This document shows positions 3,434 through 38,898 of a stretch of DNA of 64,000 bases, piece by piece (position 1 is the first letter of the stretch; every line of letters begins with the position of its first letter). Under the pieces are notes generated by a model. It did not search any database and was not told the origin of the DNA. It saw nothing but the letters and a program-made list of their open reading frames with translations. Both the position numbers and the translations under genes were made by a program. This DNA comes from Olsenella porci (GTDB lineage: Bacteria; Actinomycetota; Coriobacteriia; Coriobacteriales; Atopobiaceae), in assembly GCF_009695875.1 (NCBI RefSeq), contig NZ_VUNC01000002.1:1-64000 (forward strand). Reading direction: 5' to 3'.

Positions 3434-4351
3434 CTAGGCTGTCTCCCGGAGGGCCTGGTCCCGGAACTCGACCGGGGTCAGGCCCTTCAGCCTGACCTGG
3501 CGCCTCACGTGGTTCCAATGCTGGATGTACGCCTCGAGGTCGCGCTTGAAGCTCTCGAAGTCGCTCCAGTCGCGTCCCCGGAAGAACTCGTCCTTGATGT
3601 GCCCGAAGACCTGTTCGGTCGCGCCGTTGTCGATGCAGTTGCCCTTGCGCGACATGCTCTGCACGAAGCCGTTCTCCCTGAGCTTCGCGACGTAGGACGC
3701 GTGCCGGTGCTGCCAGCCCATGTCGGAGTGCAGGACCGGCGCCGCGCCCTCGGGCTTGGCGGCCACGAGCATGGCGAGCATCTCCTCCTGCTGGGCGAGG
3801 TCGGGGCGCTCGGAGACCGACCAGGCCACGATCTCCCTGCTGCCGAAGTCGCACGCGGGCGCGAGGTTGGCCCTGCCGAACCCGCAATTGAACTCGGTGA
3901 CGTCGGTGCCCATCTTCTGCCACGGCCCGTCGGCGGCGAAGTCGCGGCCGATGACGTTCTCGAAGGTCTCGCCGACCTTCCCCCTGTACGAGCCGTGCCC
4001 GTGGCGGTCCGTCTCGCGTCGGATGCCGCAGCTGAGGCCCATCTCGTCCGTCATCCTGAGCACGGTCTTGTCTGCGATGCGGACCCCGTCCACCGCGCGC
4101 AGCTCCATGGCCACCTGCCTGTGGCCGACGCCGTTGGGGAGCCTGCCGAAGATCTCCGTCACCCTGGCGCGCAGCTCCGGCCTGGTGGGGGCCTTGGGAT
4201 GGGACAGCGCGTAGTAGTAGCCCGGCCTGGCGAGTCCGGCGGCCCCCAGCAGGTCGGAGAGGCCGTGTCCCTGCCCTGAAAGCTCGGCGACCGCTAGGGC
4301 CTTCTCCCGGTTCGGGAGCGCGGCTCCGCCTCCGGGGCTATCGATTTTCTT
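3434..4351 (-). CDS. IS3-family transposase OrfB (rve/DDE integrase domain)
   Basis: This is the catalytic half of the transposase, normally made as an OrfAB fusion by -1 frameshifting; the listed start is the first lysine codon at the candidate slip site, not a true start codon. It has an HTH_21-like N-part (YYYALSHPKAPTRPELRARV) and then a DDE integrase core. Visible catalytic residues are Asp in MGTDVTEF, Asp in LHSDMGWQH and Glu in DNGATEQVFGHIKDEFF. The C-terminus (FESFKRDLEAYIQHWNHVRR, then KGLTPVEFR) is the usual IS150-group ending. The frame is open without lesions, so this half looks intact. Confidence 0.85.
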   Translation of the reverse strand, partial: KKIDSPGGGAALPNREKALAVAELSGQGHGLSDLLGAAGLARPGYYYALSHPKAPTRPELRARVTEIFGRLPNGVGHRQVAMELRAVDGVRIADKTVLRMTDEMGLSCGIRRETDRHGHGSYRGKVGETFENVIGRDFAADGPWQKMGTDVTEFNCGFGRANLAPACDFGSREIVAWSVSERPDLAQQEEMLAMLVAAKPEGAAPVLHSDMGWQHRHASYVAKLRENGFVQSMSRKGNCIDNGATEQVFGHIKDEFFRGRDWSDFESFKRDLEAYIQHWNHVRRQVRLKGLTPVEFRDQALRETA

Positions 4352-4809
4352 GGGTACGCCACCTGCGCCCCGGGCCTCCCGGCCTCGCGCCCGGGCTCCT
4401 GCTCGCGGGTCATCGGCGCGGCCTTCGAGCCCGACCCCCTCGGCCTGCCCCTCGGCCTGGGCCTGAGCGCCTCGGCGCCGCCCCCGCGGTACGGCCGGCA
4501 CCACTGGTCCAGCGGGCTGGAGCTCGCGATTCCGAAGCGCTCCATCGCCCCCGGCTTGGACATCCCGCCCTCCACCACGGCCCTGGCCGCGGCGACCTTG
4601 GTCTCGAAGTCGTATCTCGCGTGCTTCTTGCCCATTTTCAGCAGCCCGTCCCTCCCGACGGCCCGGTACGTCAGCTGCCATTTTCGCACGGCCTTGGCAG
4701 GGATGCCCAGGCTCTTGGCGACGGACTCGCACCCCCGGCCCTCGTCGAACATCCCGGCGGCCAGCTCCCTGACCGATCGGTCGTGCCTGCATCGCGGGTC
4801 GATGGACAT
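4294..4809 (-). CDS. IS3-family transposase OrfA (helix-turn-helix)
   Basis: OrfA binds the element ends and multimerises with OrfB. The start at 4809 (MSIDPRCRHDRSV) is preferred because GGGAGG lies 7 nt upstream; further upstream ATGs fall at or inside the terminal repeat. Two helix-turn-helix segments are visible, VRELAAGMFDEGRGCESVAK and then TKVAAARAVVEGGMSKPGAM, followed by the basic GGAEALRPRPRGRP link typical of the IS150 group. The region where a leucine zipper is expected reads EPGREAGRP, QVAYP, IAPEAEP: proline stands at several positions where I expect leucine, which would break a coiled coil. The -1 shift into orfB probably happens at the A-run AGAAAA (complement of 4345-4350). 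Confidence 0.8.
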   Translation of the reverse strand: MSIDPRCRHDRSVRELAAGMFDEGRGCESVAKSLGIPAKAVRKWQLTYRAVGRDGLLKMGKKHARYDFETKVAAARAVVEGGMSKPGAMERFGIASSSPLDQWCRPYRGGGAEALRPRPRGRPRGSGSKAAPMTREQEPGREAGRPGAQVAYPRKSIAPEAEPRSRTGRRP

Positions 4810-4845
4810 GGAAAAGCCTCCCATCTCTCGGACTTTCATTTCCAT

Positions 4846-4869
4846 GTCCAAGAAATGGGAGGCAGTTCA
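4846..4869. repeat. Right terminal inverted repeat of the IS3-family element
   Basis: This 24-bp end finishes GGCAGTTCA and is the partner of 3393-3416. It is the promoter-proximal end, just upstream of orfA. Confidence 0.85.
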
Positions 4870-4925
4870 GAGGCGGGACCCCCTCCTTTCGAATTGAGTC
4901 ATGACGGGGAGGGCCACCCGGCAGA

Positions 4926-4950
4926 CGCCCGTCGCGTAGCGCGACGGGCG
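4926..4950. repeat. Perfect 11-bp hairpin (CGCCCGTCGCG / CGCGACGGGCG)
   Basis: Arms 4926-4936 and 4940-4950 are exact reverse complements around TAG. No T-run follows on either strand, so this is not a standard intrinsic terminator. It resembles a repetitive extragenic palindrome, but I see only one copy in the window. Confidence 0.6.
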
Positions 4951-5214
4951 ATGTAGCAAGCGAGACGACCCGCCCACAGCCCCGCCCGCCGGAATCGGGT
5001 CTCACGCCGCGGGGACCGGCAGGACCCCTCCCTGCAACTGGCCAGGGGCTCGCCGCGCCAGGAGGAACTCGTAACGAACACGCGCTCGCGTACGCCCTCG
5101 GAGTCCCAAGCTAGCTGCGCCACCATCCGTGCGTCATAGTTTCGCGCTGGCATGATTCCTGCAACCACGGGCAGCGCCTGAAGCAATTGGCTTGCATCTT
5201 TAAAGATCTAGCCT

Positions 5215-9700: not shown

Positions 9701-9852
9701 TGCTTAGCGATACTACGCCTCTTGTGATTTGAGGGTTTGGCTGCTTAGGAAGCCTAGGTCTCATGGGAGTTTTGGGCCTTTGAGTCCCAAGAGGTCTAGG
9801 TTTGTTAAGCAGCTGATCGTCGAAAATGCATGAGGGCTAATGGTGCTAAGCG
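9701..9852. repeat. Inverted repeat array, cluster 1 (2 forward + 2 reverse copies)
   Basis: There are four copies of TGCTTA-N6-CTAG-N-CCTC-W-TG: forward at 9701 and 9742, and reverse ending at 9811 and 9852. The same-side pitch is 41 bp on both sides, and the inner opposed pair spans 70 bp (9742-9811). The reverse copy ending at 9852 starts CGCTTA. Spacer sequences between copies are not conserved. Confidence 0.8.
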
Positions 9853-10003: not shown

Positions 10004-11989
10004 TTGATTGCTCTTGCGGACAAGATCAGCAAGTCCTTTGGCGGCCGTGTCCTGTACGCGGCCGCAACTCTGCAGCTGAACGCCGGCGAGCGCTGGGGCC
10101 TTGTGGGGCCCAACGGCGCCGGCAAGACGACCCTGCTCAAGATCATCATGGGGCAGGAGTCTCCCGACGAGGGAACCGTGAGCTTTGCCAAGGACACGAC
10201 CGTCGGGTACCTGGAGCAGGAGACCAAGCTCGTGGGCGGCAAGTCCGCGCTGCAGGAGGTCGTTGACTCCGCGCACGAGATCAAGGACCTCGAGGCACGC
10301 ATAGAGGAGATGGAGCAGCGCATAAGCTCGTCTCAGCCAGGACCCGAGCAGGACGCCCTCCTCGCCAGCTACGGCAGCGCGCAGGACCGCTTTGAGCGCC
10401 TGGGTGGCTACGAGCTGGAGGCCCGCGCTCGGCAGATCCTCTCGGGCCTGGGCTTTCCCGTGGAGGACTTTGACAAGCCGGCGGAGGAGTTCTCGGGCGG
10501 CTGGCAGATGCGCATTTCGCTCTCCAAGCTCCTTCTGCGGCACCCCGACCTGCTTCTCCTGGACGAGCCGACCAACCACCTGGACCTGGAGAGCGTGAAG
10601 TGGCTGGAGCAGTTCCTCTCGTCCTACGACGGGGCGGTGCTGCTGGTCTCGCACGACCGCTCGTTCATGGACTCCTGCGTGAGCCACATCGCCGCGCTGG
10701 AGAACAAGCGCCTGGTCACCTACGTGGGCAACTACTCCAGCTACCTGCAACAGCGTGAGGACAACCTGGAGCAGCTCCGTGCCAAGCGCGAGGCCCAGGA
10801 GCGCGACATCCAGCACCTGGAGGTCTTTATCGAGCGCTTTAGGTACAAGCCGACCAAGGCGCGCCAGGTGCAGGAGCGCATCAAGATGCTCGAGAAGGTC
10901 AAGTCAGAGCTCGTGGTGCTTCCCGAGTCGTCCAAGAAGGTGCACTTCAAGTTTCCCGAGCCGCCCCGCACGGGCGACATGGTCGTGAGCGTGGACGACG
11001 TGTCCAAGCACTACGAGGACAACGACGTGTACGACCACGTGAGCCTCAAGCTCTACCGCGGCGACCACGCCGTGCTCGTGGGCCCCAACGGCGCAGGCAA
11101 GTCAACGCTGATGAAGCTGGTCAACGGGCACGAGCGGCCCACGAGCGGGCGCATCGAGCTGGGCCAGAACGTGACGCAGGCCTACTATGCGCAGCACCAG
11201 CTCGAGACCCTGCACGAGGGCAACACCGTTCTGCAGGAGATGGACGCGGCGGCCCCCGGCTGGACCACCTCCGAGGAGCGCAGGCTCCTGGGCGCCTTCC
11301 TATTCCACGGGGACGACGTGGACAAGCGGGTGGGCGTGCTCTCCGGCGGCGAGAAGGCACGACTGGCCTTGGCCCGCATGCTCGTGGCGCCCGACCCGCT
11401 GCTGTGCCTGGACGAGCCCACCAACCACCTGGACATCGACTCGGTCGACGTGCTTGAGCAGGCCCTGGTGACGTTCCCCGGCACGATCATCCTGATCTCG
11501 CACGACGAGCACCTGGTGAGGGCGGTTGCCAACAAGGTCATCGACGTGCGTGACCACAAGGTCACCGTGTACGATGGCGACTACGACTACTACCTGTACA
11601 AGCGCGCCGAGCTTGAGGCACGGGAGCAGGGCGGCGACGCCGCTGGTGCCCCCAAGCCCAGCGCACCGCAGGAGGACGACTCCCGCTCTCAGGGCCGCAA
11701 CGTTAAGACCAAGGAGCAGCGTCGTGCCGAGGCCCAGGCGCGCAACGCCGCCAACCGGGCCCTGAAGGAGGAGCGCAAGAGGCTCCGGCAGGTTGAGGCG
11801 GCCCTGAAGCCCGCGCAGAAGCGTTACGACGAGCTGGTGGCGATGATGGCGGACGAGGAGCTGTACAACGACGCCGACAAGTTTGACAAGTGCATGAGGG
11901 AGTACAACGCCCTGGCGAAGAAGATCCCCTCGCTGGAGGAGGAGTGGCTCGAGCTCAGCACCCGGATCGAGGAGGGTGCCGATGCCTAG
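10004..11989 (+). CDS. ABC-F family ATPase (translation factor type)
   Basis: ABC-F proteins bind the ribosomal E site and act on stalled or antibiotic-bound ribosomes; they are not transporters. This one has 661 residues. ATPase domain 1 has Walker [10 protein letters not shown] at 35-43, signature [12 protein letters not shown] and Walker [13 protein letters not shown]. An inter-domain linker with basic helices ([20 protein letters not shown]) follows. Domain 2 has [22 protein letters not shown] and [12 protein letters not shown] long charged coiled coil closes the protein (about 560-660). No membrane helices are present. The start is TTG at 10004 after GAAGGGG. It heads the operon that runs to 20296 and overlaps the next gene by 8 nt. 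Confidence 0.9.
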
Positions 11990-20296: not shown

Positions 20297-20483
20297 CATC
20301 GGCAGTTGGCGGGGCGGGGACATCGTAGTCTTCAGCAATCACGCCGATGTCGTCTCGGACGGGAGGAACGGTGATGGCGTGCCGTATGTGATCCACCACA
20401 ACGACCCGTTTCAGACGTCCTACGAGCAGGACATCCTCCAGAGCCGGGACGGCATCGTAGGGCATTGCCGGATGTCCGAGTGA
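20283..20483 (+). pseudogene. C-terminal fragment of a DUF1287 protein
   Basis: These 66 codons read SWRGGDIVVFSNHADVVSDG then NGDGVPYVIHHNDPFQ and YEQDILQSRDGIVGHCRMSE. They match the C-terminal third of DUF1287 proteins (GDIV, HIGIVSDRRN, PLVIHN, GHYR pattern), which are normally near 200 residues and exported. The N-terminal two thirds and signal sequence are missing. The ATG at 20283 lies inside the last codons of the DUF512 gene, so the break point is at the operon end. It is most likely non-functional debris, although it could still be translated by reinitiation. Confidence 0.65.
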
Positions 20484-20679
20484 GCGAGGAAGCGCTGACG
20501 GGGACGGCCTCGTAGTGCCGTGGGCCTCTATATTGAACGGGGTCGTCGCTTCGTCGTTGACCGCAGCGCTCGCCTTTCTCGATCAAAATAGCAGAGCCTG
20601 AGAAATGACGGAGGCCGTTGTGGGATGGAATCGCCAAACGCGGTGGAGGGGCTGCGCCTACATTGACCGCGACGCATCG

Positions 20680-20913
20680 TGCTTAATCCCACTAGGCCTC
20701 CTGCCAAATTCATGACATGATGCATAATCCCGCTAGCACACTTATCGATTCGGAACTAAATGCTTAATCGCCCTAGCCCTCATGTGGGTTGGAGGAGAGA
20801 GAACCAGCATGAGGCCTAGCATCGCTAAGCACCTCGGTTCCAAACCCACAAGAGGAGTAGCGCCTCTAAGCATCCCGGCTCCAGATCCACAAGAGACCGG
20901 GACATGTTAAGCA
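20680..20913. repeat. Inverted repeat array, cluster 2 (3 forward + 3 reverse copies)
   Basis: There are six copies of TGCTTA-N6-CTAG-N-CCTC-W-TG. Forward copies start at 20680, 20721 and 20761; reverse copies end at 20831, 20872 and 20913. The pitch is 41, 40, 41 and 41 bp, and the inner opposed pair spans 71 bp. The copy at 20721 is the most diverged (TGCATA). Copies at 20761, 20872 and 20913 extend into TGTGG. The 13-17 bp spacers between copies do not resemble each other. Confidence 0.85.
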
Positions 20914-21128
20914 GGCACGGATTTCCCCTCTCCGCAACGCCACTTCCCGCCGGGATCGCACGCATGACCATCCTCTTCTTTGCCTATTGATGCCAACGGG
21001 TGAGTTAACGCGACGAGTCCGCATGGCTGACCCCCATCTCTTTCACCCCTGAGACAAGCCGTCGCCACCGCCACGCCCGTCTCGGCCAACTGCTGAACGA
21101 GCTTCTCCCGTGCCACCGGCAAAGGTCG

Positions 21129-21145
21129 ACCAACCTTTGGTTGGT
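21129..21145. repeat. Short perfect hairpin upstream of der
   Basis: ACCAACC and GGTTGGT pair around TTT. No T-run follows, so termination is not indicated. Its place about 120 bp before der suggests leader structure or an operator. Confidence 0.4.
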
Positions 21146-21266
21146 GCGGGGGCAAGACACACTACGAGAAAATATATGGTAATAGAGGGGTAGGAATTGC
21201 TCGGCCCGTGGTCGCGATACTGTCGCATGCTAGACTTCACGGGATGGAACCAGAGCAAGGAGAATC

Positions 21267-38788: not shown

Positions 38789-38898
38789 TGCTTAACGTTT
38801 CCCAGCCTCTTGTGGGTTTCCGCCATCCAGCTAACAAGGGGGTCAGAGGGGCTAAGCGATCGGGGGTAATTCTGCACGAGGGCTAGCGCTGTTAAGCA
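38789..38898. repeat. Inverted repeat array, cluster 3 (1 forward + 2 reverse copies)
   Basis: A forward copy starts at 38789 (TGCTTA-ACGTTT-CCCA-G-CCTC-TTG then TGGG), and reverse copies end at 38858 and 38898 (pitch 40 bp). The inner opposed pair spans 70 bp. The position one pitch upstream (38748) ends in CATGGGG but has lost the TGCTTA start, so a fourth copy may have decayed. Confidence 0.78.

Follow-up and report, generated by a model that had tools for sequence, protein, structure and literature searches.

Short repeated units face each other in an intergenic gap beside an ABC-F gene of Olsenella porci. The window, a stretch of 64,000 nt from contig NZ_VUNC01000002.1, was scanned with a 41-bp profile derived from units found throughout the genome, and three mirror-image arrays comprising 13 units of a 41-bp motif were found. 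Whichever cut-off between 6 and 16 bits was applied, the profile gave 13 matches in the window and none when the window was reversed; the 7-mer TGCTTAG, which forms the head of the motif, is by itself not significant (5 occurrences for 2.99 expected). The first array consists of two forward-strand units, 9701-9741 (33.9 bits) and 9742-9782 (30.7 bits, pitch of 41 bp), and two reverse-strand units, 9771-9811 (31.8 bits) and 9812-9852 (28.5 bits, again at a pitch of 41 bp). Its inner pair (9742-9811) spans 70 bp, the tail of the inner reverse unit overlapping the inner forward unit, and the neighboring gene (10004-11989) codes for an ABC-F-type protein with two ABC_tran stretches and an ABC_tran_Xtn domain. 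The second array (20680-20913) has three units in each arm: the forward arm (20680-20801) has units starting at 20680, 20721 and 20761 (32.7, 21.6 and 42.5 bits; pitches of 41 and 40 bp) and the reverse arm (20791-20913) has units ending at 20831, 20872 and 20913 (38.4, 37.6 and 29.2 bits). In the third array (38789-38898), a single forward unit (38789-38829, 27.8 bits) faces two reverse units (38818-38898) ending at 38858 and 38898, with a pitch of 40 bp (20.8 and 38.0 bits) and an inner span of 70 bp. The original prediction had thus correctly described the layout of the first array and its ABC-F neighbor; its claim that the pitch is exactly 41 bp and the geometry identical to that of the second array holds to within 1 bp, since in the second array the inner span is 71 bp and one of the steps measures 40 bp. 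This second array occupies an enlarged gap (20297-21266) between a DUF512/radical-SAM gene and der, with 973 nt between the aligned ends; in 20 of 29 relatives this distance does not exceed 246 nt, and in the other nine the first gene was not found at this place. A motif-free scan of these 29 der loci detected no array.

Such arrays are dispersed throughout the 2.36-Mb genome of O. porci. Two TGCTTAR heads separated by 34 bp occur 51 times versus never in the reversed control, a sequence-only model retrieves 135 units at an E-value of 0.1 or better, and the profile scan of the loci fetched from this genome delineates 34 clusters with 154 units. The unit consensus is nTGCTTARynnynCTAGnCCTCnTGnnGrTT followed by approximately 10 free bases, and the outer units of the arrays are weaker. 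In the fetched loci, 89 of 91 same-strand steps measure 40 to 42 bp (40 bp in 6, 41 bp in 75 and 42 bp in 8), the last two being of 81 and 83 bp. Similarly, the inner span is 69 bp (2 arrays), 70 bp (10) or 71 bp (15) in 27 of the 28 two-armed arrays, the last one having a span of 114 bp. The arrays are intergenic and, according to a crude gene caller, 21 of 32 gaps are tandem, 10 convergent and 1 divergent. No functional theme emerged among their neighbors, which include enolase, metK, gltX, gdhA, ffh, malQ and other household genes. Three additional arrays of the same genome (C1:368643, C11:142764 and C12:36131) form a second class with the usual head and pitch and a different core, the inner span being 71 bp in two of the three. 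At one locus (C9:270996-271759), two reverse units occur again at a distance of approximately 530 bp, one as an identical copy, which represents a local duplication of part of the array. A lone high-scoring unit without neighbors was also noted at C8:446482-446519, some 5 kb from the only close homolog, in this genome, of the protein X described below.

When different arrays of O. porci were compared, the conserved columns agreed at a mean of 0.82, while agreement at the variable columns was 0.310 versus 0.304 for independent units (755 comparisons). Only three comparisons exceeded a z of 4.5, the remaining spacers being random, which indicates common ancestry for a few of the arrays. Because the spacers are randomized between arrays, the copies appear to be old. 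This pattern of columns resembles that of sites maintained by base-specific protein contacts, and would suggest a protein that reads each unit.

The distance between the two arms provides further evidence of a physical constraint. In a relative, G084, inner spans of 79, 89, 90, 100, 111, 120, 131, 141, 142, 151, 152 or 173 bp were found. When periods between 6 and 42 bp were compared, 15 of its spans were best fitted by 10.4 bp (R of 0.96), a value that none of 20,000 random sets reached; randomization was relied on here, closed-form Rayleigh p-values being invalid at such strength. This set excludes one near-identical copy, and the set of 16 spans gives the same result. The period also persists when spans attributable to a missing 41-bp unit are removed. 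These 10.4-bp steps are one turn of the DNA helix. In another relative, G099, most inner spans measure 68 or 79 bp, two values having been excluded from the set of other genomes: 90 bp, due to a spurious CCTTAA match, and 150 bp, for which an inner unit at 1654 had been missed (the true span is 68 bp). Both arrays of O. uli have an inner span of 57 bp (1499784-1499840 and 1945949-1946005). The constraint on spacing and phasing put forward in the original prediction is therefore supported, by the 69- to 71-bp spans of O. porci and by the helical-repeat steps of G084; of the causes that it proposed, cooperative binding by a protein is somewhat probable and bending around a core complex conjectural.

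How widespread the arrays are depends on which part of the unit is sought. With at most one mismatch, the O. porci core pattern yielded no array in 139 other genomes of the family and one single match only. Across approximately 85,000 species, the motif gave four single matches and no array, and phage scans of IMG/VR likewise gave four single matches for the window's motif, none with a neighboring unit, and 0 for the motifs of three relatives. The head alone is more widely shared: among 297 genomes of the order, ten that belong to a single other genus within the family contain pairs of GCTTAR separated by 35 bp (between 3 and 294 pairs per genome; 0 to 5 in the reversed control). Altogether, arrays with a CTTA head were identified in 13 genomes besides that of O. 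porci, two of which (G088 and G112) show one forward pair only; the pitch and mirror layout are alike and the core is species-specific, for example CGGGGTTrTGGCA in G084, CyCrTCCGG in G099, GTTGGAGG in G106, G102 and G109, and CATCsC in G094. The original prediction expected unit and pitch to be conserved in relatives while spacers drift; pitch and mirror layout are indeed kept between species, but the core of the unit is replaced.

Orthologous loci also show turnover. At one of them, G104 and G099 differ by 164 bp, which corresponds to four units, with flanks 88% alike; at another, G099 and G100 share 94% identity in the neighboring gene, yet the arrays no longer align well. Flanking genes recur between genomes in only a few cases, chiefly at an mfd-X-malQ locus, and an account by conserved position alone was rejected. 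Several observations accompany these arrays. A second motif, GGCGAGAAGAACC / GGTTCTTCTCGCC, recurs in array centers, in tails and near borders in G084, G104 and G099 (e.g., L128:2300-2720, L130 and L105), sometimes as an inverted pair. Draft contigs often end in or beside arrays (C4, C11 and C13 of G084; C3, C5, C7 and C8 of G099; C1 and C35 of G094), as if these were repeated or strain-variable. IS-type integrase (rve) genes are located at 3434-5005 of the window and at L057:175-612, the latter abutting an array near a contig end. In another family of the order, G193 has tandem 41-bp units starting with TGCTTAGCAAC, with a similar head (L116 and L117); this genome, in which no opposed arm was found at either locus, was omitted as probably unrelated.

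In G099, a protein of 362 residues, X, is encoded between two arrays. X belongs to a family of proteins of approximately 365 residues with relatives in 128 of 140 genomes of the family, up to 16 copies being present. When 119 genomes from the whole phylum were sampled, a profile of X gave matches at an E-value of 1e-30 in six, each from the order to which the family belongs, and no relative was found on viral contigs. The family is characterized by the motifs SPRETKL, (K/R)PDI, ExY.G..H and D..R..EL, in this order. Matches to PD-(D/E)XK families are weak and below curated cut-offs (MTES_1575 in 8 of 36 members, best E-value of 0.0067; DUF2726 in 4 of 36, 13.2 bits for a cut-off of 24.7), and no sequence match was found in the PDB. 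The only other matches of the 36 members scanned were single chance hits, and no HUH/Y1 family was matched.

Of the first 20 loci, nine have CTTA-head arrays adjoining an X gene, at the mfd-malQ locus in G099, G084 and G088 and beside another X in G102, G103, G106, G109, G093 and G112. No such array was found beside 20 other X genes from the same or sister species, and the nine array-adjoining proteins all fall in one clade of 15 among 41 X proteins (support of 99/99). A motif-free periodicity test extended this association beyond the CTTA head: at a z of 5 or more, 30 of 81 X flanks, corresponding to 22 of 41 X genes, all from relatives of O. porci, passed versus none of 58 der flanks, whose windows peak at a z of 4.4 and which derive from 29 relatives, few of them array-rich, so that array density is not fully allowed for; a few of the passing X flanks have odd periods (38, 49 and 56 bp) that may be due to chance. 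Eight of 16 further X loci from other genera or species passed the same cut-off, one with an odd period of 53 bp. In O. uli, an X gene (C1:1498368-1499462) is likewise flanked by an array (1499743-1499881). Each paralog tends to differ: the four X paralogs of G106 are accompanied by units of 41, 42, 40 and 31 bp, and arrays of 42 bp (L173, L167), 40 bp (L174, L189), 31 bp (L176, L187) and 41 bp with other heads (L166, L168) were found beside X paralogs, often with an opposed arm.

This linkage is a property of the relatives. The O. porci genome has only two X-family genes (L195 and L200), with no 41-bp array within 600 bp of either. In this genome and in G094, G104 and G100, all of which hold arrays, 27 of the 30 X-family genes tested are array-free on both sides and 3 of 60 flanks pass; in G094, the relatives of X are only distant (best score of 120 bits). 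Since neither X gene of O. porci lies beside an array, the partner of its arrays is unproven; its X (C8:451552) might act remotely, or a different protein might take this part.

Collectively, the sequence comparisons make it somewhat probable that the arrays are cooperative binding platforms for X-type proteins, approximately 35 of them in O. porci, built on a plan common to relatives within the family. Each 41-bp unit would be read by one protein in two parts, the head GCTTAR, common to the species, and the species-specific core. Units would be arranged head-to-tail on one face of the helix, 41 bp being about four turns, and the arms would meet tail-to-tail at the center. As the arms must be in helical register, we infer that two half-filaments touch across or around the center, giving a single, discrete nucleoprotein body. 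The members of the X family, which combine an N-terminal region of unknown fold with C-terminal PD-(D/E)XK-like motifs, would be the likeliest binders. Each paralog would have its own unit and pitch, kept next to its gene, and in each array-rich genome the unit of one paralog would have spread to many intergenic gaps. As to purpose, the arrays may be a dispersed repeat population whose spread or maintenance is aided by X, and they might also insulate or terminate at the ends of genes.

Other explanations have been considered. RNA or DNA hairpins, acting as bidirectional terminators or cruciforms, would account for the location of the O. porci arrays mostly in tandem or convergent gaps, as far as the crude gene calls go, and the opposed conserved blocks are complementary by design. 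However, the forward and reverse partners of a single array agree at only 0.274 of variable columns, below the 0.304 expected by chance. This lack of complementarity implies that there is neither a hairpin nor selection for pairing, and on this ground hairpins and cruciforms were rejected. In addition, 6 of 18 arrays of G084 are in divergent gaps and no array matched Rfam, leaving this explanation highly improbable. An RNA gene or riboswitch was likewise discarded, Rfam giving only a tRNA in the window and nothing in 20 loci of relatives. It is more conceivable, though still rather unlikely, that a transposase-like protein mobilizes the arrays in trans, as miniature mobile elements whose ends carry multiple sites and which, being very short, can be synapsed only in helical phase. 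Helical quantization, as described for the eliminated sequences of Paramecium in the part of that work consulted (PMC3464196), would fit such elements, as would the array copies of G084, which are 84-91% alike, one pair matching from approximately the first to the last unit, and the gap beside der, enlarged in O. porci but in none of the relatives in which its size could be determined. Against this, the randomized spacers of O. porci suggest that its copies are old, units and whole arms vary in number, and inspection by eye of the listed outer flanks revealed no clear target duplication. If X were the transposase-like protein, this possibility would overlap with binding by X.

An unlikely alternative is that a conserved chromosomal protein unrelated to X, such as a nucleoid or domain-boundary factor, binds the arrays, and that X genes merely adjoin them, being for instance insulated or silenced by them. 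The situation in O. porci, where arrays are kept at some 35 loci among ordinary household genes with the X genes elsewhere, would be expected in such a case, as would the arrays of G094 in the absence of a close X. Yet a factor of this kind predicts neither units and pitches that differ between X paralogs of one genome nor the replacement of cores between species. Binding by X-type proteins thus remains the explanation that we favor. It is even possible, if doubtful, that a new type of partnership between DNA and protein extends across the genome, in which X is a fast-radiating family with a nuclease fold, each member owning a private fixed-pitch tandem "address", and that helically phased mirror arrays spread between genes are rewritten in concert with protein specificity, either as within-genome replicators or as a fast-evolving chromosome-organizing code.

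The arrays would offer a natural helical-twist experiment. With dozens of protein-array pairs open to comparison, they could also make the evolution of DNA-binding specificity readable, and they would offer a first biological lead on the X family, a multi-copy and uncharacterized group of proteins in Olsenella and its relatives.

In the accessible part of the literature searched, no description of such phased mirror arrays was found. Several known systems share some of their features. BIME/REP clusters of enterobacteria are extragenic and mostly downstream of genes, as are the arrays, which differ from them in unit length, the lack of an internal palindrome, the strict 41-bp pitch and the fixed inner span. 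Multi-site ends of transposons such as Tn7 and Mu, as well as plasmid iterons and centromeres, carry protein sites that are repeated in both direct and inverted orientation, as the arrays do; but those sites are confined to one replicon or two ends, whereas the mirror arrays, with their species-specific cores, are free-standing and number in the dozens. Vsr/DUF559-type PD-(D/E)XK proteins, which also occur with AbiEi-like N-terminal regions, resemble X by its SPRETKL-type motifs and its weak MTES_1575 and DUF2726 matches, and no report of repeat arrays linked to them appeared in the accessible part of the literature searched. In the internal eliminated sequences of Paramecium, the end-to-end distance is quantized by the helical repeat, according to the part of the study consulted (PMC3464196), as is the distance between the arms of the arrays; unlike these, they are eukaryotic DNA excised by a domesticated piggyBac transposase and have no tandem units.

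The closest parallel is with REPIN-RAYT systems, described, in the portions of the studies consulted, as dispersed, inverted extragenic repeats with a dedicated protein gene flanked by its own type of repeat and with several types per genome (PMC3116915, PMC8266576). The arrays and X share these traits, repeats beside the linked gene having been found for 22 of 41 X genes, in relatives and not in O. porci. In contrast to REPINs, the units are not palindromic, the arms are not complementary at variable positions and the units are set in phased tandem arms of one to seven. While RAYTs are Y1/HUH transposases, X has no HUH/Y1 match and is weakly PD-(D/E)XK-like, and the O. porci arrays appear to be old rather than near-identical copies. 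Dispersed repeats tied to a protein have so far been known mainly from REP/RAYT, and the arrays together with X would be a second, unrelated solution. If this is true, its physical design would be much stricter, with phased tandem units, a helically quantized mirror center and cores changing in step genome-wide. On the reading favored here, the arrays and X would play roles comparable to those of REPs and RAYTs, from which they differ in unit, in geometry and in the protein involved.
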